From: Candidatus Peregrinibacteria bacterium CG10_big_fil_rev_8_21_14_0_10_36_19
GTDB lineage: Bacteria > Patescibacteriota > Gracilibacteria > UBA1369 > LOWO2-01-FULL-3
Direction: 5' to 3'
Length of the DNA stretch: 41,783 bases
Assembly: GCA_002772535.1 (NCBI GenBank)
Contig: PFDP01000006.1
Location: 1-41,783, forward strand
Of this stretch, positions 3,561 through 31,717 are shown one piece after another (positions within the stretch are counted from its first letter, which is position 1; every line of letters begins with the position of its first letter). The notes under the pieces were generated by a model that was given only the letters and a program-made list of their open reading frames with translations, did not search any database and was not told the origin of the DNA. The translations under genes were made by a program, and so were the position numbers.

Positions 3561-4022
3561 TTAGTTCCTCTTCTTTAAAAAAACAAATAGTCCTATAGCT
3601 GCGGTTGATATTAAAACTAGAGTTATGGGATTTTTTGTTACATCATTAGATTCTTTTATATTTTTTACATCTTGCTTGCCTATGGTAGTTTTTTGGATTT
3701 CCGTTTGAGGTATGTTGGCAAGATATTCTCTAATTGGGTTATTACCCTCTACATAATTATTGCCGTCAATAAGCAATGGCACTCCCCCTGCTGTGTAATT
3801 TAATTCTTTAGACTTTTTCAGATACAACTCTTGATTGTTTTTATTCTGATAAATTTCATATTCTTTAATGTCGTTAAGGTTGTAAAGATCGTTTGCTGAT
3901 AAGTAATCTTTGAGCTCTAAACAGTGAGAACATTTTTCACTTGTAAAAAGCATCATTTCGGCATAAGCAGTAGTGTTGAAAATTAGTAACAAAAAGGTAA
4001 ATAGAAATATTTTTTTAATCAT
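3561..4022 (-). CDS. Secreted, membrane-anchored thioredoxin/glutaredoxin-like protein
   Basis: 153 residues. Signal peptide of about 21 residues (MIKKIFLFTFLLLIF..., cleavage after AYA), then a thioredoxin-like fold with a CSHC active site (C31/C34), the cis-proline motif GGVPLLIDG, a Lys/Asn-rich linker and a C-terminal membrane helix (ITLVLISTAAIGLFVFL) followed by KKRN. The redox domain should face the outside, anchored at its C-terminus. The family suggests thiol-disulfide exchange on exported proteins; the partner is unknown. Its stop abuts the stop of the beta-CASP gene. It has its own leaderless-type promoter. Confidence 0.75.
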   Translation of the reverse strand: MIKKIFLFTFLLLIFNTTAYAEMMLFTSEKCSHCLELKDYLSANDLYNLNDIKEYEIYQNKNNQELYLKKSKELNYTAGGVPLLIDGNNYVEGNNPIREYLANIPQTEIQKTTIGKQDVKNIKESNDVTKNPITLVLISTAAIGLFVFLKKRN

Positions 4023-4028
4023 GTTTTT

Positions 4029-4037
4029 ATTATAGCA
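4029..4037 (-). promoter_or_regulatory. Extended -10 of a leaderless promoter (thioredoxin-like gene)
   Basis: Read on the minus strand: TGCTATAAT, then six bases (AAAAAC), then the ATG ending at 4022. No Shine-Dalgarno sequence is possible because the transcript would begin at the start codon. Confidence 0.65.
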
Positions 4038-4114
4038 GTTTTGTTTTTTTGTGCTTAATTTTCCTTATTTTTTTATATTTAGAAAAACTGTCAATAAATT
4101 TTTTGGGTAGTCGT

Positions 4115-4142
4115 TTGACATACAGGGGGGGTACTGTACAAT
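4115..4142 (+). promoter_or_regulatory. Consensus sigma-70 type promoter of the candidate large RNA
   Basis: Perfect -35 TTGACA (4115-4120), a 16-base spacer containing seven G in a row, and -10 TACAAT (4137-4142). Expected start near 4149. The same TACAAT with a 16-base spacer appears before tRNA-Gly (32923-32950), so it may be the stable-RNA promoter style of this genome. Confidence 0.7.
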
Positions 4143-4148
4143 CCATGC

Positions 4149-4898
4149 TCGATAGAGGGATTTAAAAAAATATTTTTCTCTATTTGTTCCTTGGGAAAAT
4201 AGGTCATTTTCTACCCAAAATAAAGGGCCTGATCTGATTATTTCCTTCTGAAAAATCTGTTGCACAATTGTGTATTCGGGAAATTTGTTTGTGAACCGTC
4301 GCCGGTAAACTTCCCCAATACATTAAGCTGCCAGTCAGAAGAGCAGCTTAAGAGGGAGGGTGCTATGCTATCTTGGTGTTAACAGCACTGGGCATACCAT
4401 CCAGAGAACCTCGTCAGGAAAAATTTTTGTTGGTTTTGATGCGTCTTAGAGTGAGTGCTTTGTGATAATTGAGCACTAGTGTGTTGCAGTGTTGATCGCC
4501 TTTCAGGCTTGATCCGCTCAACCATCTGGTTACCAATTTTCACTTCAGTGCCGTCTTTGGCTCGTTTTTTTCTTTTGGGATGGGGTCTTCCAGCATCGTA
4601 AGGTGCAAGGAGGAAGTATTGAGTGGTCCTTGCTGATCATTCAAAAACCCAACACCCCCCAATTCGGCATCGCGAAGATGCCAGAAAATCGGCACTTATA
4701 GTGCCAACCTACCAAGTGAAATCCCCGAAAAAGGGAGGCTTAAGTCGTGAGTTTCGCGGCAAAAAAGCTTCCCCTTTGGGTGGAAAGCGGCCAAAACCGC
4801 TTGCAACACTTCCCCTTAAGTCTTTATGGGAGGGGTGTCGCACACTCAAGGAATTTGGCCCCGGTTGATGTTGTTCTACAACTTCCCGGGGCTCTTTT
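4149..4898 (+). ncRNA. Candidate large structured RNA, about 750 nt, family unknown
   Basis: A stretch with no credible protein gene on either strand. By eye it is about half G+C from roughly 4290 on, against about a third in the genes on both sides, the usual sign of a structured RNA in an AT-rich genome. Perfect or near-perfect hairpins run along its length: ATAGAG/CTCTAT (4152-4183), TTGGG+AAAAT with partner ATTTT and CCCAA (4191-4218), TTAAGCTGC/GCAGCTTAA (4323-4351), AGTGCT/AGCACT (4454-4477), GGCATC/GATGCC (4666-4682), GGCACT/AGTGCC (4691-4705), AAGCGG/CCGCTT (4785-4802). It has its own promoter and terminator, so it appears to be a separate transcript. I compared it by eye with RNase P RNA, tmRNA, SRP RNA and 6S RNA and found none of their conserved cores in order. 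The 5' and 3' ends are inferred from promoter and terminator only. Confidence 0.6.
4857..4898 (+). terminator. Intrinsic terminator of the candidate large RNA
   Basis: Outer stem GCCCCGG (4858-4864) with CCGGGGC (4886-4892), inner stem GTTGT/ACAAC (4870-4882) with a three-base loop, then TCTTTT. It separates the RNA from the exonuclease gene at 4949. Confidence 0.7.
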
Positions 4899-4948
4899 CC
4901 ATTCATTTAACTTGTAGCTAATTTCTATGTAAGGTAGATTCTTTTGTG

Positions 4949-5551
4949 ATGAAAATTATAATTTTTGATACAGAAACAACGGGATTACCATCTACTCAGC
5001 TAGAGCTTGAGAAGCAGCCTCATGTATGCCAATTTGCGGCAATTATATATGAGTGTGATGGATATTCTTTGAGAGAAATTAGAAGGATTAATCATTTAAT
5101 AAAACCTCCTGTGAGTATCCCACAAGAGTGTGTTTATGTTCATGGAATTTCAGATGAAAAAGTAGCAAATTCCCCAAGTTTTTCAGAAGTTGCAGATATT
5201 ATTGTAGAAGCTTTTCATGGATCCGATGTAGCAGTTGCCCACAATATAAGTTTCGATGAACAAGTTATACAAGCGGAATTAAAGCGTTTGAATTATGGTA
5301 TAGATTTTTTACCATCTCAGACCTTTGATACCATGAAAGAAACAAAAGAACTTTGCAGACTACCTGGTAGAAACCCTGGTACATATAAATCTCCAAGGTT
5401 GCTAGAGTTATATCAACACCTTTTTGGTACACATTTTGAAGGTGCTCATGATGCCATGTATGATGTTGAAGCAACTGGAAAATGCCTTGCTGCACTTTTA
5501 TCGAAAGGTATTTTTAAGCCGCAAGAACCGGTACAGAATCAATTATTTTAA
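4949..5551 (+). CDS. DnaQ-like DEDDh 3'-5' exonuclease
   Basis: 200 residues. The four acidic motifs of the DEDDh family are visible: FDTETTG (D7, E9), HNISFDE in the middle and HDAMYDVEAT near the C-terminus, where the final His and Asp belong. Such proteins remove 3' nucleotides from DNA or RNA, as proofreading subunit (epsilon-like) or in repair. The extreme C-terminus is QNQLF, which fits the sliding-clamp-binding pentapeptide pattern QxxLF, so docking on DnaN is likely (inference). No polymerase domain is fused. A GTG three bases upstream (4946) is an alternative start. The next gene follows after nine bases, suggesting co-transcription. Confidence 0.85.
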   Translation: MKIIIFDTETTGLPSTQLELEKQPHVCQFAAIIYECDGYSLREIRRINHLIKPPVSIPQECVYVHGISDEKVANSPSFSEVADIIVEAFHGSDVAVAHNISFDEQVIQAELKRLNYGIDFLPSQTFDTMKETKELCRLPGRNPGTYKSPRLLELYQHLFGTHFEGAHDAMYDVEATGKCLAALLSKGIFKPQEPVQNQLF

Positions 5552-5560
5552 CCTCATTTT

Positions 5561-8287
5561 ATGTCTAGAGATTTTAAATATTATCCAGAGGATTTTGGTG
5601 CGCTAACTGTGAAAGTGAAGCACATGGATTTAACTTTTGATATGTATGAACAGGAAACATTTGTGAGTTCCGATCTACATTTAAAGGCATTAGAAAATAT
5701 TAAGAGTTTAGATTTGAATGCTAAGAATTTGGAAATTTTGAAAGTGCAGGTAGATATGGAAGAAAGCAAATTTGAGTACTTGAAAGACGAAGATATTTTA
5801 AGAGTATATTTTGCAAACGAAATTGAAGAAGGAGAAGATTTTGTAATTCATACAGAAAGCATTTGTAGACCAACTTCTAATATTCTGGAAGGTCTTTACT
5901 ATGATGAAACTCCGGCTGGATGTCCGTGTCAGCAGATTACTCAGTGCCAACAATGGGGATTCCAAAGAATTGTACCGTGTATAGATGACATGACCGCAAA
6001 ATGTACATATAAAACTGAAATTATTGCTGATGAAAGGTATACAAATTTGATATCAAATGGAGATGTTTCTCTAGAAATTGAAAGTGTGGGAGAAGGTAGA
6101 AAAAAAATAAAATACGACAACATTATTACTCCAATGGCCACCTATCTTTTCTTTTTAGGTGTTGGTACTTATGCAACTTTTAAGAAAGAGTTTACATATC
6201 CAGATGGAGATAAATTTATGTTGGAACTTTTGGTACCTCCAAATTCCGATGAAGAAATTGCAATGAAAGCCTTGGAGGTTTTGCATGATGCAATTATGTG
6301 GGTTTATTTATTTACCGGTCCTGATAAATATAAAAACTGGGATAAATCTATGAAAATTTGGAATGGCGAAAAAGTTGATATGAAGGGAATGACTTTTGGT
6401 TATAAATATACCGGAACTGTTTATAGGGAAATTGGAATGCAGAATAGCGATTTTGGTGGCATGGAGAATGTTGGAAATACAACTATTACCACAAATAGGA
6501 TAATGCCTTTTCCAGAAATGACAGATGGAAGTTTTGAATATATGGTGCGTGTGAAAGTTCACGAGTTTTATCATAATCTAAATGGTTCGGAGGTTACCGG
6601 AAGGAGCCCATTTGAAATTTGGCTTAACGAGGCTGTAACTGTTTTTATTGAGCAAGAATATCATGAGTTTGTTTTTGGGCGCGAGTATTCGCGTTTGGAT
6701 ACAGTTTTAACTTTGCTCGCGCCTGGTGGTGGAACTTTTGCTGGCGACGATAATGTTTCTGCCATGCCAATTGAGCCAGATGGATTTAACGACTGTAATG
6801 AACTTATTACCGGTGTTACTTATGTAAAAGCCCCGGAATTTGTAAAGATGATTGAGCGCTTAATGGGGCAAGAGGTTTTTGTGAAAGGCTTAGCTTTATA
6901 CCATGGTAGATATAAACACTCTAATGCCACTAGAGCACAATGGGTTGAGGCAATGGAGGAAGCTAGTGGGAAAAACTTTCAACGCATGGCACAAACTTGG
7001 CTTAAGCAGGCTTCATATCCGAAAGTAAATGTGGTAGGAGCTTATGATTCCACAGAGCGCACATATACTTTAAAACTAACTCAAAGTGGATTTAAAGATG
7101 GTATGCATTGGGAATTTCCATTTTTAGCAGCTATCTGTGATGCAGATGGAAAAGATTTAGATGAAAAATTATATTGGGTTAAAGATGTGAAAAGTGAGAT
7201 TGTCTTTGAAAATGTTGATGAACCAGCATTTGTATCTTTAAATAGAGATTACTCATTTTTTGGAAAAGTTTTCTATGAAGTAAGTGAAGATCAATTATAT
7301 TTACAGGTGAGAAAAGACTCTGATCTGATAAATAGATACATGGCTTTTTATAGACTTTCTGAAATAGAAAAAATGAATATTTTAAGTGGTGGTGATGTTA
7401 GTGAAAAATTTGTGGATTTATATTTTGAGATTCTAAATGATGAAAACTTGATGGCCAAAGTTAGTACAGAAATTTTAACAATTTTTGAAGCCGTAGAAGA
7501 TGAAAAATTTGCACATGCCTATAGAGATCTATATGAGGCTGTTAAGAAAATTAAAGTAGCTGTTGCTGAGAAATATAGGGATGAACTAATTTCATTGTAC
7601 AAAAAATATAGTCATACAAATATTAGTGGGGCTTATTTAGAGGTTGCAAATGCAAAAATAAAGGCTAGGCAGGTTAAAAATGTTTGCCTCTCCATTTTAG
7701 CAAAACTAGAAGAAAAAGAGGTGTGGGATATGATGCGTGAACAATTTCAAAATGCTGAATGCGCTACAGATAAAGTGGCTGCATTTAGTCTTTATATAAA
7801 CAGTGAAGCCCCTGATAAAATTGAAATTTTGGAGGCATATGAAAAAGAGGCTTCTCAAAATCTAGTAAGTTGGGAAAGTTTTCTAGGCTGTGTTTCGGGT
7901 AATGATAGCGATGATATGCTAGAAATAATTAAGAGAGTAGAAAAATCTGAATCGTTTAGAATTGATCAGGCAAATGATCAGAGGGCACTATACGCAAGAT
8001 TTGCGGGCAACAGAAAAAGATCACTTTTAACACCAGAAGGACGTGAGTTTTTAAAGGAATCTATTCTGAAACTCGCACCAATAAATGAATATAGTTGCTT
8101 ATATGTAATAAAACCATTTGGTAACATAGATAAAATTGCCGAAGAACATCAGGCTGATCTTGTGAGGGTTTTAATGGATGTAAAGGCTGCACTTGATCCA
8201 AAAAAAGTCCCTAGCGTATTTAATACAATTGAAAGAATTTTGAAGGGTTCACCGAATGGAGTAAAGAGATTTGAAAATTTACAATAG
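5561..8287 (+). CDS. pepN: M1 family aminopeptidase (aminopeptidase N type)
   Basis: 908 residues, similar in length to bacterial PepN. Gluzincin signature: FGGMENVGNTT (substrate N-terminus-binding GxMEN loop, about residues 299-303) and HEFYH at 334-338 with the third zinc ligand E357 (NEAVT), exactly the HExxH-18-E spacing of the family. The first ~190 residues form the beta-saddle N-domain; the C-terminal third is the helical cap. It removes N-terminal amino acids from peptides in the cytoplasm; there is no signal peptide. Of use to an organism living on scavenged peptides. It sits nine bases after the exonuclease gene and probably shares its transcript. Confidence 0.93.
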   Translation: MSRDFKYYPEDFGALTVKVKHMDLTFDMYEQETFVSSDLHLKALENIKSLDLNAKNLEILKVQVDMEESKFEYLKDEDILRVYFANEIEEGEDFVIHTESICRPTSNILEGLYYDETPAGCPCQQITQCQQWGFQRIVPCIDDMTAKCTYKTEIIADERYTNLISNGDVSLEIESVGEGRKKIKYDNIITPMATYLFFLGVGTYATFKKEFTYPDGDKFMLELLVPPNSDEEIAMKALEVLHDAIMWVYLFTGPDKYKNWDKSMKIWNGEKVDMKGMTFGYKYTGTVYREIGMQNSDFGGMENVGNTTITTNRIMPFPEMTDGSFEYMVRVKVHEFYHNLNGSEVTGRSPFEIWLNEAVTVFIEQEYHEFVFGREYSRLDTVLTLLAPGGGTFAGDDNVSAMPIEPDGFNDCNELITGVTYVKAPEFVKMIERLMGQEVFVKGLALYHGRYKHSNATRAQWVEAMEEASGKNFQRMAQTWLKQASYPKVNVVGAYDSTERTYTLKLTQSGFKDGMHWEFPFLAAICDADGKDLDEKLYWVKDVKSEIVFENVDEPAFVSLNRDYSFFGKVFYEVSEDQLYLQVRKDSDLINRYMAFYRLSEIEKMNILSGGDVSEKFVDLYFEILNDENLMAKVSTEILTIFEAVEDEKFAHAYRDLYEAVKKIKVAVAEKYRDELISLYKKYSHTNISGAYLEVANAKIKARQVKNVCLSILAKLEEKEVWDMMREQFQNAECATDKVAAFSLYINSEAPDKIEILEAYEKEASQNLVSWESFLGCVSGNDSDDMLEIIKRVEKSESFRIDQANDQRALYARFAGNRKRSLLTPEGREFLKESILKLAPINEYSCLYVIKPFGNIDKIAEEHQADLVRVLMDVKAALDPKKVPSVFNTIERILKGSPNGVKRFENLQ

Positions 8288-21981: not shown

Positions 21982-22083
21982 AGCTTACACTCTTCTATCT
22001 TTTCCAAATTTCGAAGATGAAACGAAGTAGTTAATATTATCGTATTAATTTTTACAGTATTTAGCTGGTGTGCATAAAAATAA

Positions 22084-22112
22084 TTGACATTCAATTTTTA
22101 ATGCAGTACATA
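22084..22112 (+). promoter_or_regulatory. Promoter of the restriction island
   Basis: Perfect TTGACA (22084-22089), 17-base spacer, TACATA (22107-22112), then six bases and the ATG at 22119. This favours the start at 22119 over the in-frame upstream candidates. Confidence 0.65.
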
Positions 22113-22118
22113 ATATGC

Positions 22119-22691
22119 ATGCAAAGAAAAATCATTAAAGAAGTTTCAGAAATAATAGCAGGATTTACATTCCGTGGAGCCTTAAAAAGTGACCCAGATG
22201 GAGGGATGAGAGTACTGTTGGCAAAAAATATCAATGAGGACGGTACAATCTCTTACGACGATCTCACTAAGATAAGTCTAGAGGCTCCTAGAACAAATGC
22301 ATTTGTATCAAAGAATGATGTTGTACTATCCTCAAGAGGTGTTTTTCGAGCAGGTGTTTTTAGCGAAGATACTAATAATACTATCACAGCTTCATCTGTA
22401 TATATTTTAAGGATATCTGTAAAATATATTCTTCCAAAGTATCTAGCCATTTATTTAAACTCTAAAATAGGTCAAAATCGAATTAAAAATATCACTACTG
22501 GGAGCACTGTAAAGACGATATTGAGAGGAGCATTAGAAAATCTAGAAATCAATATTCCAAGCATAGATAGACAAAAAAAAATAATAGAAATCATGGAAAA
22601 TTGGCAAACCCGTGAAAAAATGTTAGTTAAAAAAATTGAGGTAAGTAAAAACATTACTGAGGGAGCTATCACACACTTATTAACCAACTAA
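22119..22691 (+). CDS. Half-length type I restriction specificity subunit (single TRD)
   Basis: 190 residues, about half a normal HsdS. It contains one target-recognition domain (EVSEIIAGFTFRGALKSDP ... VLLAKNINEDG, then DVVLSSRGVFRAGVF and TGSTVKTILRGALENLEINIPS) and one conserved helical spacer (DRQKKIIEIMENWQTREKMLVKKIE). Full HsdS proteins have two such units. Half-S proteins can work as dimers, giving a symmetric recognition site, or can be remnants. It stands first in the operon, five bases before hsdM. Confidence 0.8.
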   Translation: MQRKIIKEVSEIIAGFTFRGALKSDPDGGMRVLLAKNINEDGTISYDDLTKISLEAPRTNAFVSKNDVVLSSRGVFRAGVFSEDTNNTITASSVYILRISVKYILPKYLAIYLNSKIGQNRIKNITTGSTVKTILRGALENLEINIPSIDRQKKIIEIMENWQTREKMLVKKIEVSKNITEGAITHLLTN

Positions 22692-22695
22692 AATC

Positions 22696-24207
22696 ATGAG
22701 CGATTCAACAACACAAGAACATTTAAACAAAGTCCTCTGGAACGCTGCAGATTCATCTCGCACATCTTTAGATGCCGCAGTCTATAAAGACTATGTTTTA
22801 GCTATGCTCTTTTTCAAATACTTAAGCGATCTTGCAAAGAAAGAGCATGAAAAACTAAAAGAACGTTTTGGAAGTGATGAAAATCGTATACAGGAAAAAA
22901 TGAAATCTGGTCGTTTCTATTTACCTCCGAATTCTTCATTTGATTACATCTATTCAGTTCATGAAAAAGATAATATTGGTGAAGAGATGAACAAAGTGAT
23001 GCACAGAATTGAGGAAAATAATAAAGAGAAACTGGATGGGATTTTTAGCGGTTTGGATTTTAATTCTGAATCAACTCTGGGAAAGGTTGAACAGCGCAAC
23101 AAGATGATTCGCCACCTTATTGAGGATTTCCACAAAATTGATCTAAGCAATATGGATGATGATGTAATTGGGAATGCTTATATGTACATGATAGGTCAAT
23201 TTGGTTCGCAAGCTGGCAAGAAAGCGGGAGAATTTTTTACGCCGCGCCACGTTTCAAGACTATTATCAAAACTTGCTCAACCAAAGGATGGTGACAGAAT
23301 TTGTGATCCCGCTTGTGGTTCAGGTGGATTGCTTTTATTGGCTGGTGAAGAAATAGAAAAGGAAGGTTCAAAAAATTACGCACTGTATGGGCAAGAAAGT
23401 ACAGGCTCAACCTACCAATTAGCGCGTATGAATATGTTTCTCCATGGAAAAGATTCAACTAGGATTGAATGGGGTGACACTTTAAACAACCCATTACTTG
23501 TTGAAGATGACAGACTAATGAAATTTGATCTCGTTATAGCAAATCCCCCATTTTCTCTTAAAAAGTGGGGGGCTGAAAATGCCGAAAACGATAAATACAA
23601 TCGTTTTTTCCGAGGAATTCCGCCTAAAGACAAAGGTGATTTTGCTTTTATTACTCATATGGTTGAAACTGCAAAAGCAAAGAGCGGGCGTGTTGCCGTA
23701 ATTGTCCCTCATGGCGTTTTGTTTAGAGGTGGGGCAGAGGGGAAAATTAGACAATCATTAATTGAGGAAAACATAATTGATGCTGTTATAGGTCTACCGG
23801 CAGGACTTTTCCAAACTACAGGTATTCCGGTTGCCATTTTAATTTTGGACAGATCGCGAGAAGAAGGCGGAGCTAATGACAACAAAAAGGATGTTTTATT
23901 TATAGAAGCATCAAAAGAATTCAAGTCTGGTAAGGCTCAAAATACTTTGAGCAAAGAGAATATAGAGAAAATCTATAATACCTATGCAAATCGTGAAGAA
24001 ATCGACAAATTTTCACGCAAAGTAATGCCAGCAGAAATAGAAGAAAATGACTTCAACCTAAATATCACAAGGTATGTAGATACTTTTGAGGAAGAAGCGG
24101 AAATTGATATCTCTGCAAATTTAGCGGAGCTTAAAAAACTGGAACCGGAGCTTGAGAGACTTGAAAAGAAGATGGAAGAGCACTTGAAGACATTGAATAT
24201 TTCTTAA
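22696..24207 (+). CDS. hsdM: Type I restriction system N6-adenine methyltransferase HsdM
   Basis: 503 residues. An N-terminal helical domain (LWNAADSSRTSLDAAVYKDYVLAMLFFKY), then the GEFFTPRHV lead-in, SAM-binding motif I DPACGSGG (D204) and catalytic NPPF (N283) of N6-adenine methyltransferases. A C-terminal coiled coil ends the protein. It methylates the site read by HsdS and is needed with HsdS and HsdR for cleavage. Start in the context ACTAAAATCATG with no Shine-Dalgarno, typical of genes inside operons here. Confidence 0.95.
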   Translation: MSDSTTQEHLNKVLWNAADSSRTSLDAAVYKDYVLAMLFFKYLSDLAKKEHEKLKERFGSDENRIQEKMKSGRFYLPPNSSFDYIYSVHEKDNIGEEMNKVMHRIEENNKEKLDGIFSGLDFNSESTLGKVEQRNKMIRHLIEDFHKIDLSNMDDDVIGNAYMYMIGQFGSQAGKKAGEFFTPRHVSRLLSKLAQPKDGDRICDPACGSGGLLLLAGEEIEKEGSKNYALYGQESTGSTYQLARMNMFLHGKDSTRIEWGDTLNNPLLVEDDRLMKFDLVIANPPFSLKKWGAENAENDKYNRFFRGIPPKDKGDFAFITHMVETAKAKSGRVAVIVPHGVLFRGGAEGKIRQSLIEENIIDAVIGLPAGLFQTTGIPVAILILDRSREEGGANDNKKDVLFIEASKEFKSGKAQNTLSKENIEKIYNTYANREEIDKFSRKVMPAEIEENDFNLNITRYVDTFEEEAEIDISANLAELKKLEPELERLEKKMEEHLKTLNIS

Positions 24208-24217
24208 CTTAAAAATT

Positions 24218-24448
24218 ATGTCAAAAAAAACTTTAAAAACAATTAAAGAAACGCCAAAAGGGAAAAATGTAAAAAGCATTGATCTGAGAAATCTTACTAA
24301 GAAAGAGAATACTGAGCTTGTAAAAAAAGCTGATAAAGGCCAATTGCCTGGATATCATATAGTTAAGCAAAAGGGAAAAGCCAAATTTTTACGGTCAAAT
24401 CCAGATGTAAAAAAGAAAAATAATTTAGATCCTAAAATTAATTCATAA
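24218..24448 (+). CDS. Small basic hypothetical protein in the restriction operon
   Basis: 76 residues, strongly basic (about a quarter Lys), with MSKKTLKTIKETPKGKNVKSID at the start and YHIVKQKGKAKFLRSNPD near the end. No family recognised with confidence. It sits 10 bases after hsdM and is separated by nothing from the SIR2-like gene (ATG at 24449 immediately after its stop), so it is probably co-translated with it. It could be a DNA-binding helper or an inhibitor of the neighbour; that is a guess. Confidence 0.6.
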   Translation: MSKKTLKTIKETPKGKNVKSIDLRNLTKKENTELVKKADKGQLPGYHIVKQKGKAKFLRSNPDVKKKNNLDPKINS

Positions 24449-25690
24449 ATGGCTGCACTGCTTATAACATATGAAGATGTACTAAAAGGGCTTGATGAAG
24501 CACATTTGCTCTTAGGAAATGGTTTTAACGCCTCTTTAGGCATAATGACCGATTATAAGAGCATATTTAATGAAATGAAAAATGGATATTCTGGTTATCA
24601 GGATATAGAAAATTTATTTGAATCGAACGAATACGATCTTGAAAAATTATTAGGAGAACTGGAAGGCAATTTAAAAACCCCCGGGGGATTTTTAAATAGA
24701 TTTGTTAGCAATAAAATCAAGCTTGATTTTATGAAGGCAGCGAGCCACCTTGCCGCATCTCAAGTGAATAATGTCTATCAAGAAAAGAATGATGGAATAT
24801 ATTTACTGCTAAAAAACTTTAATAATTATTTCACACTTAATTACGATCCTTTCTTGTATTTACTGATGATGAAATTCAAGAAAAAAGACAATAAAAATGG
24901 TGCAGTAATTCTTCAAGGAGCTTTGCCATTTATAGAAGACGATCTAGACGAGGAGCAAAATGGAATTTACTCAAAAATAAAAGAAGCAAGAAATAATGGT
25001 GAATTAAGTATTCATGTAAATAAAAACGATACGAGAAAGGAGTTAAGTCAGTGTACAAAATCAACCTTTAATACTGTAGTTAAAGAGCACTTCAAAGCTG
25101 AAAATTGGAAGGCAAAGGATATAGATAAAGCTATTAACTTAGTATGGCAGGAAGAAAACGAATCCCATGAACTGAACATAAATGATGGATTCTTTAAAGA
25201 CAAGGATTTCGAACAGCCTGTTTATAAAGGAAAGCAAATGCTGAATCAAAATTTATTTTTTCTTCACGGAGCTTTTCATATTTATCAAAATAAAGACACT
25301 ATTTTCAAAATTACGCAAAAAAGTGATAAAGCACTCTATGAAAGGTTGACCGAAATTATCAATAATGGAGAAGAAAATATCGTTTGTGTTTTTAAAAGCG
25401 ATGAAAAGAAAGAAGAAATAGAAGCAAACACGTATTTAGCTTCCGCATATAAAAAATTGGCTGAATTGTCAGGATCCATTGTACTGATTGGCTGCTCATT
25501 ATCGGATAACGATAATCATGTTTTTGAACAAATCAATAAATCTAAAGTGGATACTATTTACATTTCCAGTAAAGAGAAAAATAAAGATGAAGACTATTCT
25601 AAAGCGAAGAAAATTTTTAGCAAAAAGGAAATAATTCTCTTTGATAGAGAAACAATTACTTATGAATTACCAAATAATGAAAATGAATAA
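24449..25690 (+). CDS. SIR2-like domain protein (DUF4917 type), likely defence effector
   Basis: 413 residues. Motifs match the SIR2-like Rossmann fold found in anti-phage proteins: LLLGNGFNASL (residues 20-30, nucleotide-binding GxGFN), FTLNYDPFLY (N131-Y-D, the SIR2 Asn-Asp catalytic region), FFLHGAFHIY (H273) and IVLIGCSLSDNDNHVFEQI near the end. SIR2-domain defence proteins destroy NAD+ on infection and so stop the cell from supporting phage growth; that this one does so is inference. It is nested between hsdM and hsdS and its 3' end overlaps hsdS, so it is expressed with the restriction system. Confidence 0.75.
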   Translation: MAALLITYEDVLKGLDEAHLLLGNGFNASLGIMTDYKSIFNEMKNGYSGYQDIENLFESNEYDLEKLLGELEGNLKTPGGFLNRFVSNKIKLDFMKAASHLAASQVNNVYQEKNDGIYLLLKNFNNYFTLNYDPFLYLLMMKFKKKDNKNGAVILQGALPFIEDDLDEEQNGIYSKIKEARNNGELSIHVNKNDTRKELSQCTKSTFNTVVKEHFKAENWKAKDIDKAINLVWQEENESHELNINDGFFKDKDFEQPVYKGKQMLNQNLFFLHGAFHIYQNKDTIFKITQKSDKALYERLTEIINNGEENIVCVFKSDEKKEEIEANTYLASAYKKLAELSGSIVLIGCSLSDNDNHVFEQINKSKVDTIYISSKEKNKDEDYSKAKKIFSKKEIILFDRETITYELPNNENE

Positions 25691-26921
25691 AATTCCGGCT
25701 GGCTGGAAACAGGTAAAACTCGGCGAAATTACTCAAAAAATTGGAAGTGGAATTACGCCTCGTGGTGGATCTTCTGTATATTCAGATGAAGGAATAATGT
25801 TTTTAAGAAGCCAAAATATCCAAAATGGTAAATTTAATTTATCTGACGTTAAGTATATTTCACCAGAGATTGATGAATCGATGAAGTCTAGTCGCGTAAA
25901 AAAAGACGACGTACTTTATAATATTACTGGGGCTTCAATTGGCAGGTCTGCCGTCTATTTGTTTGAAGCAAATTCGAATGTCAACCAGCATGTTTGCATT
26001 ATAAGATTAAAAAATGTTAATCCAAAATTTATAAATTCTTTTTTGTTATCTAAGCAAGGAGTTAGGGAACTTTATAGCTTTCAAGCTGGAGGAAACAGAG
26101 AAGGATTGAATTTTCAACAGCTAAGTTCATTCAAACTCCTCCTTCCACCCCTTTTAGAACAAGAAAAAATTGTTGAAGTCCTTGAGACTTGGGATAGTTA
26201 TATTGAAGGACTTAATAAAGCAATCAACCTTAAAAGGAAGGTTAGGAATGGTTTGATACATAAGTTGCTTACGGGACAGATCCGTCTGGCTGGTTTTGCT
26301 GATCCGTGGGAAGTCGTTCTTGTGTCAGATATTTGTGAAATCAAAAAAGGGTCTGGGCTATCTAAAGAAAAGCTATCAAAGAATGGCAAAAATAAATGTA
26401 TTTTATACGGTGAAATATATACGACATATGACAAATTCATTTTCAATATTATAAGTAAAACTGATGTAAATGAAGGCATTAAATCAAAAAAAGATGATGT
26501 GTTAATCCCGGCCTCAACAACAACTTCAGCACTGGACTTAGCAACAGCTACAACGTTACTAGAAGATGATGTTTTAATCGGTGGTGATGTAAATATTTTA
26601 AGAAAAAAAATGCCTGCCAGCTTTGACGGAATTTTCTTTGCCTACTATTTAAGTCATGTCAAAAAACATGAACTTGCAAGGTTAGCCCAGGGCATAACAA
26701 TAGTACATTTGTATGGTAAGGATTTGAAAAAAATTGCTATAGAAACACCGAAAATCGAAGAACAGAGAGCCATTGCTGACGTGTTGGTTAAAGGATACCA
26801 AGAAATCGAAGCCCTAGAAAAGAAAAAAGCACTAGTTGAAGACCAAAAGAAATTCCTTTTAAACAACCTAATTACAGGGAAAATCAGACTTCCTGAATTC
26901 ATAAAAAAAGACCCCCGGTAG
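25683..26921 (+). CDS. hsdS: Type I restriction specificity subunit HsdS (two TRDs)
   Basis: 412 residues. First target-recognition domain: KLGEITQKIGSGITPRGG ... FLRSQNIQNG, with the central conserved helix LEQEKIVEVLETWDSYI and LLTGQIRL. Second domain: VSDICEIKKGSGLS..., closing with EEQRAIADVLVKGYQEI and LLNNLITGKIRLPEF. So the full two-half layout of HsdS, which reads a bipartite DNA site. ATG 25683 (or 25677) overlaps the end of the SIR2-like gene by a few codons. Its TAG lies inside the stem of the terminator at 26907. Confidence 0.92.
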   Translation: MNKIPAGWKQVKLGEITQKIGSGITPRGGSSVYSDEGIMFLRSQNIQNGKFNLSDVKYISPEIDESMKSSRVKKDDVLYNITGASIGRSAVYLFEANSNVNQHVCIIRLKNVNPKFINSFLLSKQGVRELYSFQAGGNREGLNFQQLSSFKLLLPPLLEQEKIVEVLETWDSYIEGLNKAINLKRKVRNGLIHKLLTGQIRLAGFADPWEVVLVSDICEIKKGSGLSKEKLSKNGKNKCILYGEIYTTYDKFIFNIISKTDVNEGIKSKKDDVLIPASTTTSALDLATATTLLEDDVLIGGDVNILRKKMPASFDGIFFAYYLSHVKKHELARLAQGITIVHLYGKDLKKIAIETPKIEEQRAIADVLVKGYQEIEALEKKKALVEDQKKFLLNNLITGKIRLPEFIKKDPR

Positions 26922-26947
26922 GGACGTACCGCTACAAGGGCTCTTTT
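26907..26947 (+). terminator. Predicted terminator after hsdS
   Basis: AAAGA and CCC (26907-26914) pair with GGG and TCTTT (26938-26946) around a C-C mismatch; an inner stem CGGTA/TACCG (26916-26931) completes it; TTTT follows. On the minus strand the hairpin is followed by seven T, so it could work both ways. The left arm is inside the hsdS reading frame. Confidence 0.55.
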
Positions 26948-26982
26948 CATATTGAATCGACTATAGCTTAACCCAAAATATT

Positions 26983-27803
26983 ATGCAAAAAGACATTATC
27001 AAAAAACTACATAAATCATTTGAAGACTACCACCATGAAAAAGATGGCGTTGAATACTGGCTTGCCAGAGAATTACAAGAGTTATTGGAATATACTGAAT
27101 GGAGGAACTTTGAAAAAGTTTTAGAGAAAGCCAAAGAGTCATGTAAAAACGCTAAACAAAGCCATGTCGATCATTTTGTTGACGTCAACAAAACGATCAA
27201 GATGCCTAAGGAAGCCGAAAAAAAAGTGTCGGATATCATGCTAACACGCTATGCCTGCTACCTCATTGCCCAGAACGGTGATCCTCGCAAAGAAGTAATA
27301 GCTTTTGCCCAAAGCTATTTTGCTTTGCAAACTCGTAAGCAAGAACTTCTTGAAGAAAGAATTGCAATACAAGAAAGAATCGATGCTCGAAAAAAATTAA
27401 CAGAAACAGAAACTAAGTTTTCAAAACTAATTTTTGAACGAGGGGTTGATAACCAAGGTTTTGGGAGAATTCGCAGTAAGGGAGATAAAGCTTTATTCGG
27501 AGGGCATGGCACGACTCAAATGAAAAAGAAGCTAGGTATAAAAACTGGCCCTTTGGCTGATAAGCTACCCACATCACTATTAAAGCCAAAGACTTTGCAA
27601 CAGAGCTCACAAATTTCAATGTTGAGAAAGAAGATTTACAGGGTGAACCACCTATAACTCGCGAACATGTCAAAAACAATAGTGAAGTTCGTAAACTTTT
27701 AAACCAACGAGGCATAAAACCGGAGGAACTGCCACCGGAAGAGGATATTAAAAAACTTGAAAGGAAACTTAAAAAAGATGATAAAAACTTTATAGCCAAT
27801 TAA
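26983..27803 (+). pseudogene. dinD: dinD-like gene broken by a one-base frameshift
   Basis: The first ~198 codons encode a DinD-type (DNA-damage-inducible protein D) sequence: KSFEDYHHEKDGVEYWLARELQELL, YTEWRNFEKVL, YACYLIAQNGD, RGVDNQGFGRIRSKGD. Near 27574-27584 the frame is lost. Reading on in the -1 frame from 27585 restores the family's C-terminal part (AKDFATELTNFNVEKED, then PITREHVKNNSEVRKLL and a last IKKLERKLKKDD) up to the TAA at 27801-27803. The site (TCACTATTAAAGCC) is not slippery, so loss of one base is the simple explanation. Its stop is three bases before hsdR. DinD in E. coli is LexA-controlled and interferes with RecA; a role in this operon is not known. Confidence 0.8.
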
Positions 27804-27806
27804 ATT

Positions 27807-30800
27807 ATGATAATACAAGCAAACTTTGATGAAGCAAAACAATCCCAACTCCCTACCTTGGAGCTGCTAATCAATATGGGATACAAATACATATCTCCTA
27901 CAGAGGTAAATAACCAGCGTGGTAATGATAACTCTAAGTTCATATTGAAAGATATCGCTTTCAAAAAGCTTATGGAAATCAATTGGTATCATGATAAGGG
28001 TGAAGATTATAGATTCAGCGAAAAAAATGTTCGCATGGCTATTGATGAACTTGAGAATATTCAACTGGAAGGTTTACTTGATACTTCTAGGGATGTTTTT
28101 CATACTTTGATGTCTTCCAGTGGAAAAACTATAAGAGAATTTATTGATGGTAAATATGAGTCTTATGATTTTAAATTCATTGATTTTGAAAATCCTGCAA
28201 ACAATGATTTTCATGTAACAGTTGAATTTAGTGCAGAAGGAAAACAAAATATTCGTGCTGATATTGTGCTTTTTGTAAATGGTATCCCATTTACAATCAT
28301 AGAAAACAAGAAGTCTGGCACTAAAATTGAAGAAGCATTGAACCAATTAAATAAATATCAGGGGCCGGAATATTGCCCAAAACTGTTTATATTTTCCCAA
28401 ATATTGATTGGTGCAAATAAGACAGAATTATTATATGGGACAACTGGAACTCCTACTAAATTTTATGCAAAATGGAAAGAGAAGGGGCCTAATGAAAAAG
28501 AAACAAAGAAAAGAATTGATGCACTTGAGAAAAAAACAATAAACCTCATTTCAAAGCCTGTTGATAAAGATATTTATAAGCTGATTTGCGCTGATTTGAA
28601 CGGAGCTACTCTCAATCACAAGCAAGTGACCAAAAGACTTCCTACGGAGCAAGACAGGGGCGTTGTTGCTCTTCTAGAGCCTGAAAGGATGCTTGATCTG
28701 GCCAAGAACTTTATTCTCTATGATGGAGGAATAAAAAAGATTTCTCGTTATCAGCAATTCTTTGCGATAAAAGAGAGTTTAAAAACTATAGAAGCTGAGA
28801 AAGAAGGGCCCTTAGGCTTTAGAAGAGATGGTGGTTTGATTTGGCATACTCAAGGATCGGGTAAATCTTTAACGATGGTTATGTTTGTAAAAGCACTAAT
28901 TGAAGATGAGCGCATACAAAATCCTCGTATCATTATTGTTACTGACCGAAAAGATTTGAACAAACAAATCTCAGATACATTTAGAGATTGTAAGCTCAAA
29001 AAAGGAGTTATAGAAGCAACCAGTGGACAACATCTTTTAAAACTTATTAAAGAGAAAAATCTTAATGTCATCACTACGCTTGTACATAAATTTGAAAGCG
29101 CAAAAAAACATAGAGCCGGTTTTACTGATGAATCTAAAAACATCTTTGTTTTGATTGATGAAGCTCATAGAACTCAAGGAGGAATGGCTAATGCTGAAAT
29201 GACAAGAACCATTCCAAATGCTTGTTATATCGGATTTACAGGAACGCCATTAATGAAGAAAGAGAAAGCAAGCTGGCTTAAATTTGGAAAATACATAGAT
29301 AAATACACAATTGATGATGCATTGAGTGATGGTGTTATTTTGCCTCTAATTTACGAGGGTAGATATGTCGAGCTTGTCCAGAATAAAGAGCAAATTGACA
29401 GGCAAGTTGAGCGCATAACAAAAGAATTAAATCAAGAACAGAAGAAAGAACTTCAAAAATTTGCGGACAAACGAGTGATTCGCAACAACCCTCAAAGAAT
29501 AGGAGAAATTGCTTATGACATTCAGGAACATTTTATTAGAAACTTTCAAGGGACAGGACTAAAAGCTCAGATAGTTGCTCCTTCAAAATACTCAGCTGTC
29601 TTATTCCAAAGGTTTTTTGAAAATTTTGGAGAAAAAGTTAATACTGCTGTGATAATTTCTGAAACTACAACAGAAGATGACGAAAAAGACACTCACAAAA
29701 AAGAAGTTTCAGACTTCCTAAAAATGATAAGTCATAATTTCAGGGATTTATCTTCTTATGAGAAACAAAAGGTCAATAGCTTTAAAAAGAGTGACGATGG
29801 TGTAGAAATTTTGATAGTAGTAGATAAACTTCTTACTGGTTTTGATGCCCCTAGAAATACCGTTCTATACCTAGCAAAAGATCTTAAAGACCATAATTTA
29901 CTGCAAGCAATTGCTAGGGTTAATCGTATTTATGAAAATAAAAAATCTCCAAAAACTGCCGGCTTCATTATTGATTATTCAGAAAATGCCAAAAATATAG
30001 ATACTGCAATGAAATTATTTGGAAGCTATGACGATGAGGACGTTAAAAACACTCTTATTGATGTCATAGCCAAAAAGGCTGAACTGGAAGCAAGCTATGA
30101 TGCTTTACATGAGATGTTTAAGGAACTGAAAAATGTAAAAGATGATGAAGCTTATATTCAGAAATTTTCCGAAGAGCCAGAACGCATACTTTTCTACAAA
30201 TCGTTAAATACATTCATTAGACAATTCAATGAATGCCTTGCTTTACAAGATTTTTCAATTAGCTTTCCCCATTTGGACACCTATAAGCTAGATCTCAAAA
30301 AATTTCTCGAACTTAGGAAAACTATAAGGCTAAAATATGCTGATACAGATGATTTTTCGGAATATAAGTTACAACTTGTTAAAATTCTTGACCAATTTAT
30401 TGATGCAAAAGAGGTTGAAATCTTAACAAAGCAAATAAACATTAACGACACTGATGCCTTTTCTGAGGCAATTGCAAATTTGGGTTCGGATAAATCAAAA
30501 GCAGAGGCAATTGCTGCACAGACACAGAAAACAATTTCCGAGGAAATGGAAAAGGATCCTGAATTCTATCATCGTTTCTCTGAGAAGATTTCAAAGCTTT
30601 TACAAAAGCTAAGGGATGGGAAAATTGCTGATATTGAGGCTCTTAAAGAAATTAAAGCCATAAAGTCACAAGTTTTAACCAAAGAGGATGATGAAATCCC
30701 ATCTAAAATCCAAAACATTACTGGAGCTGATATTTTTTATAGAAATCTAAAAGATATCCTACTGCAATATGATGTAAAAGAAGATATGCTTATTGATCTC

Positions 30801-31016
30801 ATTTTAGATATTTTCAACATATTAAGAGAAGAAACTATTGTTGATTGGCATAAAAACAATGAGGTTAAAAGAGTTATAACAAACAAGGTAGATGACTACC
30901 TTTATGACATTGTTAAAATGAAAAAAGGCATTGATCTTAGTAATGAAGATTTACAAAGTCTACTTTCACTTATTATCGATCTAGCATGTAATAACCATGA
31001 AATTTTCTATTCATGA
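27807..31016 (+). CDS. hsdR: Type I restriction endonuclease/translocase subunit HsdR
   Basis: 1069 residues, typical HsdR length. N-terminal PD-(D/E)xK nuclease (RADIVLFVNG with D152, then ENKK with E166 and K168), then the two RecA-like motor domains of superfamily 2: Walker A TQGSGKS (K353), DEAH box LIDEAHRTQ (D451), motif III GFTGTPLM, and motif VI LQAIARVNR with LLTGFDAPR before it. A helical C-terminal domain follows. With HsdM and HsdS it translocates and cuts unmethylated DNA. No break is seen, so the complex should be functional. Its TGA overlaps the ATG of the next gene (31013). Confidence 0.95.
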   Translation: MIIQANFDEAKQSQLPTLELLINMGYKYISPTEVNNQRGNDNSKFILKDIAFKKLMEINWYHDKGEDYRFSEKNVRMAIDELENIQLEGLLDTSRDVFHTLMSSSGKTIREFIDGKYESYDFKFIDFENPANNDFHVTVEFSAEGKQNIRADIVLFVNGIPFTIIENKKSGTKIEEALNQLNKYQGPEYCPKLFIFSQILIGANKTELLYGTTGTPTKFYAKWKEKGPNEKETKKRIDALEKKTINLISKPVDKDIYKLICADLNGATLNHKQVTKRLPTEQDRGVVALLEPERMLDLAKNFILYDGGIKKISRYQQFFAIKESLKTIEAEKEGPLGFRRDGGLIWHTQGSGKSLTMVMFVKALIEDERIQNPRIIIVTDRKDLNKQISDTFRDCKLKKGVIEATSGQHLLKLIKEKNLNVITTLVHKFESAKKHRAGFTDESKNIFVLIDEAHRTQGGMANAEMTRTIPNACYIGFTGTPLMKKEKASWLKFGKYIDKYTIDDALSDGVILPLIYEGRYVELVQNKEQIDRQVERITKELNQEQKKELQKFADKRVIRNNPQRIGEIAYDIQEHFIRNFQGTGLKAQIVAPSKYSAVLFQRFFENFGEKVNTAVIISETTTEDDEKDTHKKEVSDFLKMISHNFRDLSSYEKQKVNSFKKSDDGVEILIVVDKLLTGFDAPRNTVLYLAKDLKDHNLLQAIARVNRIYENKKSPKTAGFIIDYSENAKNIDTAMKLFGSYDDEDVKNTLIDVIAKKAELEASYDALHEMFKELKNVKDDEAYIQKFSEEPERILFYKSLNTFIRQFNECLALQDFSISFPHLDTYKLDLKKFLELRKTIRLKYADTDDFSEYKLQLVKILDQFIDAKEVEILTKQININDTDAFSEAIANLGSDKSKAEAIAAQTQKTISEEMEKDPEFYHRFSEKISKLLQKLRDGKIADIEALKEIKAIKSQVLTKEDDEIPSKIQNITGADIFYRNLKDILLQYDVKEDMLIDLILDIFNILREETIVDWHKNNEVKRVITNKVDDYLYDIVKMKKGIDLSNEDLQSLLSLIIDLACNNHEIFYS

Positions 31017-31717
31017 AAATAAAGGAATTCAAATATGGAAAATATTCTTACGAGTACTATCTGGTGCTTCAAGACAGAAAAACAGTCGCCCTAACTGTGC
31101 AGCCAAGTTTGAATATAATTTTGAAATGCCCTCTTGATTACGATATTGATAAAATTGAAAGATTTTTGAAAAGAAAATGGTTGTGGCTGGAAAAACAAAT
31201 TCAATATTTTAAAAAGTACAAAAAGAAGATTGAGAAAAAGGAATATGTTTCAGGAGAGAGCTTCTTGTATTTGGGACGACAATATAAACTTTTAGTAAAA
31301 TCATCAAAAAAATCTGAGGTGAGGCTTGAGAATGGTGCAATTACTATATTTACAACTTCATCAACACAAGATAAAAACGCTAATAAAAAACTGCTTGATA
31401 ATTGGTTTGATAACCGGATTAAGGCGATTTTTTCTTCTAGGTTGAATGAAATGTTAAAGAAGTTTGATTATGATTTTGTTCCCACCCTTATTACACGGAA
31501 AATGCCAAAAAGATGGGGCAGTTATTTAGGAAAAAATAAAATAGTGCTCAATCCATTATTAATTAGAGCTTCTAAAGATTGTATCGATTATGTGATAGTT
31601 CACGAGCTTTGTCATATGAAACATACAAAACACAACAATTCTTTTTTTAAACTTCAAGAATCAATTATTCCAAATTGGAAAGATGTAAAAGAAAAACTTG
31701 AACTGAGGTTTTTGTAG
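31013..31717 (+). CDS. YgjP-like (DUF45/M48-related) metallopeptidase
   Basis: 234 residues. Zinc-binding signature VIVHELCHMKHTKHNNSFF: HExxH at 197-201 with a further His at 204/207. N-terminal part includes VALTVQPSLNIILKCP and RKWLWLEKQIQ, and before the zinc site RKMPKRWGSYLGKNKIVLNPLL, all usual in the YgjP family. ATG overlaps the stop of hsdR (ATGA), so translation is coupled. Genes of this family are often found next to type I restriction genes; the function there is not established. It is the last gene of the island. Confidence 0.87.
   Translation: MKIKEFKYGKYSYEYYLVLQDRKTVALTVQPSLNIILKCPLDYDIDKIERFLKRKWLWLEKQIQYFKKYKKKIEKKEYVSGESFLYLGRQYKLLVKSSKKSEVRLENGAITIFTTSSTQDKNANKKLLDNWFDNRIKAIFSSRLNEMLKKFDYDFVPTLITRKMPKRWGSYLGKNKIVLNPLLIRASKDCIDYVIVHELCHMKHTKHNNSFFKLQESIIPNWKDVKEKLELRFL

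Follow-up and report, generated by a model that had tools for sequence, protein, structure and literature searches.

OLE, ROOL and GOLLD are free-standing bacterial RNAs of several hundred nucleotides with many hairpins, whose partner and role are mostly unknown (PMC12286853). Another long bacterial RNA, the 520-nt lncRNA of Lactobacillus salivarius, is borne on a megaplasmid and was proven to be abundant; it is lineage-restricted, apparently non-coding, and has no assigned function (PMC5643018). In this study we focus on a locus of a 41,783-nt stretch of DNA (hereafter the window), which is contig C7 of a Candidatus Peregrinibacteria genome (the source genome, G000) of 1.07 Mb and 99% completeness. 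We read this locus, with moderate confidence, as a gene, present in one copy, for a structured RNA of about 750 nt that stands free and is restricted to its lineage. Bacteria of the candidate phyla radiation have small, stripped genomes, and to our knowledge RNA biology is almost unexplored in this lineage; here, a stripped small genome would nonetheless devote 750 nt to an RNA without known relative.

The locus is housed in a 923-nt spacer (4023-4945) and stands free between intact genes (Table 1). Its neighbours are chromosomal household genes, the closest tRNA being 28 kb away, and the exonuclease and aminopeptidase genes that follow it (4946-8287) probably form an operon. The preliminary description had seen no credible gene in the spacer and the analysis agrees: codon statistics are flat in every frame over 4023-4945, the 18 ORFs of at least 30 amino acids have scores between -0.5 and +0.1 bits per codon, when long ORFs reach about 0.35, and no Pfam family is reached at its cut-off by the ORFs of the locus. 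The protein-coding reading was rejected on these two grounds. Since no open frame is present, the product would work as RNA.

Two other features of the window were recorded. An HNH-type gene fragment lies at 13-480, and it or its near-copies are also found at the ends of contigs C3, C8, C11 and C13; this distribution at several contig ends makes a repeated element the probable cause of the breaks in the assembly. Positions 22068-31717 contain a type I restriction-modification-like cluster in which, as read from the translations, M- and S-like ORFs and an R-like helicase ORF are accompanied by a SprT-like metalloprotease-like ORF and an extra 413-aa ORF.

Table 1 Features of the RNA locus and its surroundings (window coordinates, except in the last row, where positions are those of the named loci); helices are predicted, with their pair probabilities.
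Feature	Position	Strand	Remarks
Small membrane protein gene	3561-4022	minus	Convergent; bounds the spacer on the left
Sigma-70-type promoter, TTGACA-16-TACAAT	4115-4142	+	TTGACA 4115-4120, 16-nt spacer, TACAAT 4137-4142; 11/12 consensus match
Putative structured non-coding RNA, about 750 nt	4149-4898	+	Fold z, no coding signal, no Rfam match, single copy
5' hairpin, 12 bp	4151-4184	+	Mean pair probability 0.95
Closing helix, 5' strand, 10 bp, long-range	4186-4195	+	Pairs with 4845-4854; 0.97
Three-way junction	4243-4357	+	Helix 4243-4249/4351-4357, hairpins 4270-4323 and 4324-4350; 0.86-0.95
Hairpin, 11+7 bp	4358-4402	+	0.81-0.96
Long extended hairpin, 9 + 23 bp	4462-4543	+	0.90-0.95
Four-hairpin cluster	4581-4705	+	4586-4614, 4619-4644, 4663-4686, 4691-4705; 0.87-0.97
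Stacked hairpin	4733-4773	+	4733-4741/4765-4773, inner 4744-4750/4754-4760; 0.96-0.97
Hairpin, 16 bp	4802-4842	+	0.92
Closing helix, 3' strand	4845-4854	+	Pairs with 4186-4195, joining both RNA ends
Terminator-like hairpin with short U-tract	4857-4898	+	15 pairs; 0.96; -21.4 kcal/mol
RNase_T/DnaQ-like 3'-5' exonuclease gene	4946-5551	+	PF00929, E 7e-23; start 48 nt past terminator
M1-family aminopeptidase gene	5561-8287	+	PF01433/PF17432; 9 nt after exonuclease gene
R3-class loci	L022 703-1245; L016 1969-2350; L008 1917-2281	minus (L022)	About 15 further loci

The promoter announced in the preliminary description is present. A scan of the whole source genome for the sigma-70 consensus (at least 11/12, spacing 16-18) returned 95 sites, 70 of which fall within the intergenic DNA that makes up about 8% of the genome (about 92% is coding), a roughly 30-fold enrichment. 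The site at 4115-4142 is thus unlikely to be due to chance and is probably real, and its position would place the transcription start near 4149. The -10 element and 16-base spacer are shared, as had been noted, with the promoter that precedes tRNA-Gly (TTGAAA-16-TACAAT). At the opposite end, the hairpin first described as a strong intrinsic terminator does have a strong stem (4857-4893), followed by the tail CUCUUUUCC, but the word overstates the element as a whole, with its interrupted stem and modest U-tract, and it is not among the entries of a consensus terminator scan. Base composition had been given as about half G+C. It is indeed raised, at 45.2% over 4149-4898, when the spacer on either side has 22% and 28% and intergenic DNA averages 34.8% (sd 7.1), yet only the 3' half comes close to that value (49%, against 41% in the 5' half).

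The fold of the RNA, predicted from one sequence, has an energy of -270 kcal/mol, while 20 shuffles gave -216 +/- 6.5 (z -8.3, 0/20 as good); a second run with 12 shuffles gave z -7.2, and the reverse strand -4.7. As both shuffle samples were small, these z values are approximate. Among the 300-1100-nt intergenic stretches of the source genome, the folding surplus of this locus ranks with that of the RNase P gene. At least ten local helices are predicted with a mean pair probability of at least 0.86, where at least seven hairpins had been claimed. In the isolated 3' domain, 4774-4782 competes for pairing with the 3' strand of the closing helix. Furthermore, three copies of the palindrome CUUAAG are present (4347, 4739 and 4815), a number equalled in 2 of 2000 shuffles, an observation made post hoc; that these repeats may form loop-loop contacts is only a lead.

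The main rival to a free-standing RNA is a 5' leader of great length, in which case the exonuclease-aminopeptidase pair would be driven from the promoter at 4115, and the RNA would control read-through of the hairpin at 4857-4898 by attenuation or through an unknown ligand- or tRNA-sensing element. As in an attenuator leader, a gene (that of the exonuclease) follows the hairpin on the same strand, 48 nt further on; the U-tract is modest, and the two possible partners of the closing helix 3' strand are switch-like. Within 200 nt before the exonuclease gene, moreover, no promoter-like site exceeds 8/12, when 107 of 148 divergent genes (72%) reach at least 9/12; the other 41, however, also have just 7-8/12, and the missing good promoter is for this reason weak evidence. 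A length of 750 nt is well beyond that of known leaders, and Rfam gave no match at E<=10 to a known aptamer, riboswitch or T-box core. Furthermore, a distant orthologue of the exonuclease, from a different family of the order, lacks an adjoining RNA of this kind, which indicates that the RNA is not tied to this gene. Altogether we regard the leader as unlikely. The closest relative found for the exonuclease (56%) belongs to a Candidatus Peregrinibacteria genome of the same order (G080), and the gene was seen in one other genome of the order only. In the complete relative G040, the beta-CASP, rlmH, tsaD and cca genes are present, with neither the RNA nor the exonuclease gene adjoining.

Searches for relatives of the RNA returned nothing meaningful by blastn in 89 genomes of the order, in a sample of 380 genomes of the phylum, in phages or in plasmids. 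Covariance models of the subdomains 4243-4402 and 4733-4854, which have a limited reach since each was built from a single sequence, matched only the query itself in the 89 genomes of the order, as did the first of them in 288 sampled genomes of the class. Short blastn matches in G013 and G080/G453 (those in G013 and G080 appear inside protein-coding sequence) and a lone 36-nt match in G430 were rejected as chance, none having a second collinear match. The source genome is the only one of its genus among those searched, and the absence of homologues thus points to an RNA that is genus-restricted or diverged past recognition, not to one that is unreal. The same absence, together with the GC above that of the genome and the rarity of the neighbouring exonuclease in the order, would also suit a decayed or horizontally acquired segment, such as a dead gene or the remnant of a mobile element, whose GC and palindromes mimic an RNA. 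We consider this improbable: promoter, paired-ends fold and terminator follow each other in the proper order, the segment is single copy with no residual frame or Pfam match, nothing like it was found in phages or plasmids, and five of six probes of 18-23 bases had no exact match in viral contigs. Probe hits in viral contigs came down to a single 17-mer, at loci sharing at most 31 nt, and were taken as chance.

Known RNA families were addressed by the Rfam covariance-model scan that the preliminary description had proposed; it gave no match in the locus at gathering score or at E<=10, including with the OLE, ROOL and GOLLD models. RNase P RNA and tmRNA, to which the first reading could not fit the locus, were both found elsewhere in the source genome (RF00010, G000:C3:352355-352711, 148 bits; RF00023, G000:C10:26637-27042, 91 bits), so that the RNA is not a diverged form of either. 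The same lack of fit had been stated for SRP and 6S RNA and is borne out by the absence of any covariance-model match at E<=10 in 4000-5000, the source genome's own SRP and 6S copies not being located. A housekeeping RNA was rejected from these results, while group I and II introns gave no covariance-model match and no host gene is interrupted. Although the size and paired-ends architecture resemble those of large ornate RNAs, and the source genome carries elsewhere the 5' end of a new Peregrinibacteria class (model R3), the empty Rfam scan and an unfiltered R3 search without match at E<=10 within 4149-4898 make it very improbable that the RNA is a strongly diverged RNase P, tmRNA, SRP, 6S, intron, OLE/ROOL/GOLLD or R3-class RNA, a reading that is largely refuted.

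The R3 class is separate from the window RNA and was discovered via a scan of G040 for structured spacers. Its gene lies upstream of a large exonuclease-domain gene, to which it is divergently oriented, and spans about 340-550 nt from a TTGAC-/TATA- promoter to a terminator. It contains AAACAAAAACAAAA linkers and also a block, ACAGGCGGCCGGUGGUGCGGCUGAAAACAACACC, with the potential for a pseudoknot. In an alignment of 13 sequences, 27 of the 54 consensus pairs have compensatory changes; the core has 98% of its cells paired, compared to 85% in shuffles and 30-44% with partners slid, and reaches a covariation score of 0.48 versus 0.20, values partly favoured by a core structure derived from the same alignment. 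The core model matches 26 of 30 genomes of the family, often twice per genome, and extends to other families of the order, strongly in f9, more weakly in f10 and f14, and marginally in f16; in 288 sampled genomes of the class, all matches at E<=0.001 are inside the order. None of the R3-class loci tested matched Rfam 15 at gathering score, and a narrow literature search found no published description. The source genome carries the 5' end of an R3-class RNA at a contig edge (G000:C5:1-94, minus). That the window RNA could be a displaced copy of this family RNA from beside the large exonuclease gene was rejected, since no profile or covariance-model match was found and also because of this 5' end on C5. 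The R3-class motif CGCCCTAGAAAAGC occurs alone at G000:C3:14656 near tRNA-His, where it possibly belongs to a small RNA or is a remnant. The class is better supported than the window RNA: it is conserved, backed by covariation, and testable in any Peregrinibacteria metatranscriptome.

Further orphan loci were observed. On contig C3 of the source genome, a structured RNA-like locus of about 420 nt (G000:C3:210982 to about 210560, minus, in L160) has a TTGACA-17-TATATT promoter, adjoins a gyrA-looking gene and has a fold z of about -10; another, of about 360 nt (G000:C3:309779-310147, +, in L165), has a TTGAAA-17-TATAAT promoter, two A-rich linkers and a fold z of about -8. Neither matches Rfam, and the other orphan RNAs of the source genome have no strong match in G040. 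G040 itself contains an RNA-like locus of about 320 nt with promoter and terminator (G040:C1:962842-963287, minus, in L104), with a fold z of -14.5 (12 shuffles) and no Rfam match, as well as a dispersed family of spacer inverted repeats (G040:C1 256898, 420554, 885682, 338201, 493011 and 924876; arms e.g. GGGCGTATCGGAGCCTTTGCGGGCCGGTGCC) that is MITE-like.

For the window locus, transcription, termination and non-coding nature are each probable. As a free-standing RNA gene, it would work as follows: RNA polymerase probably starts from the consensus promoter, transcribes 4149-4898 and stops at the terminator-like hairpin, and the transcript is predicted to fold as one compact domain in which the 10-bp end-to-end helix encloses the three-way junction and some ten stable hairpins. 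It may then be a stable structural RNA that acts in trans, serving as a scaffold or an assembly as large ornate RNAs do, and would be restricted to its lineage or evolve very fast in it. The presence in the source genome of further uncatalogued RNA-like loci that have promoters of their own was counted in favour of the free-standing RNA; the lack of a homologue, the competing partner of the closing helix and the z of the reverse strand were counted against it. Thus, what the preliminary description proposed stands as regards a free-standing, non-coding, structured RNA gene with promoter and terminator, but a conserved class of the OLE/GOLLD/ROOL sort goes beyond what the searches, which found no homologue, support. 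Tentatively, the RNA could represent a new class of large structured RNA of one Peregrinibacteria lineage, working as a folded, trans-acting scaffold or assembly, which is quite possible though short of what we would assert; the reduced genome, of about 1.07 Mb, would then encode several uncatalogued structured RNAs, this class among them. If the transcript is real and stable, an RNA without catalogued relative adds a large RNA to this lineage.

Compared to OLE, ROOL and GOLLD, the window RNA is alike in being free-standing, several hundred nucleotides long and rich in hairpins, and differs in having no sequence or covariance-model match to them. ROOL and GOLLD are set in phages, prophages or tRNA islands, which is not the setting of the window RNA, and formation of a homo-oligomeric complex is a feature of the three known RNAs. 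With RNase P RNA and tmRNA, which are encoded elsewhere in the genome and do not match it, it shares a structured nature, a promoter of its own and a GC above the genome average. The R3 class is from the same bacterial family, is likewise uncatalogued and has its own TTGACA/TATAAT promoter and terminator, but also A-rich linkers and a conserved GGCCGGUGGUGCGGCUGAAAACAACACC block that the window RNA does not have. Finally, whereas the lncRNA of L. salivarius is megaplasmid-borne and abundant and the window RNA is chromosomal and a putative transcript, both are long, apparently non-coding and, as far as the genomes searched suggest, lineage-restricted.
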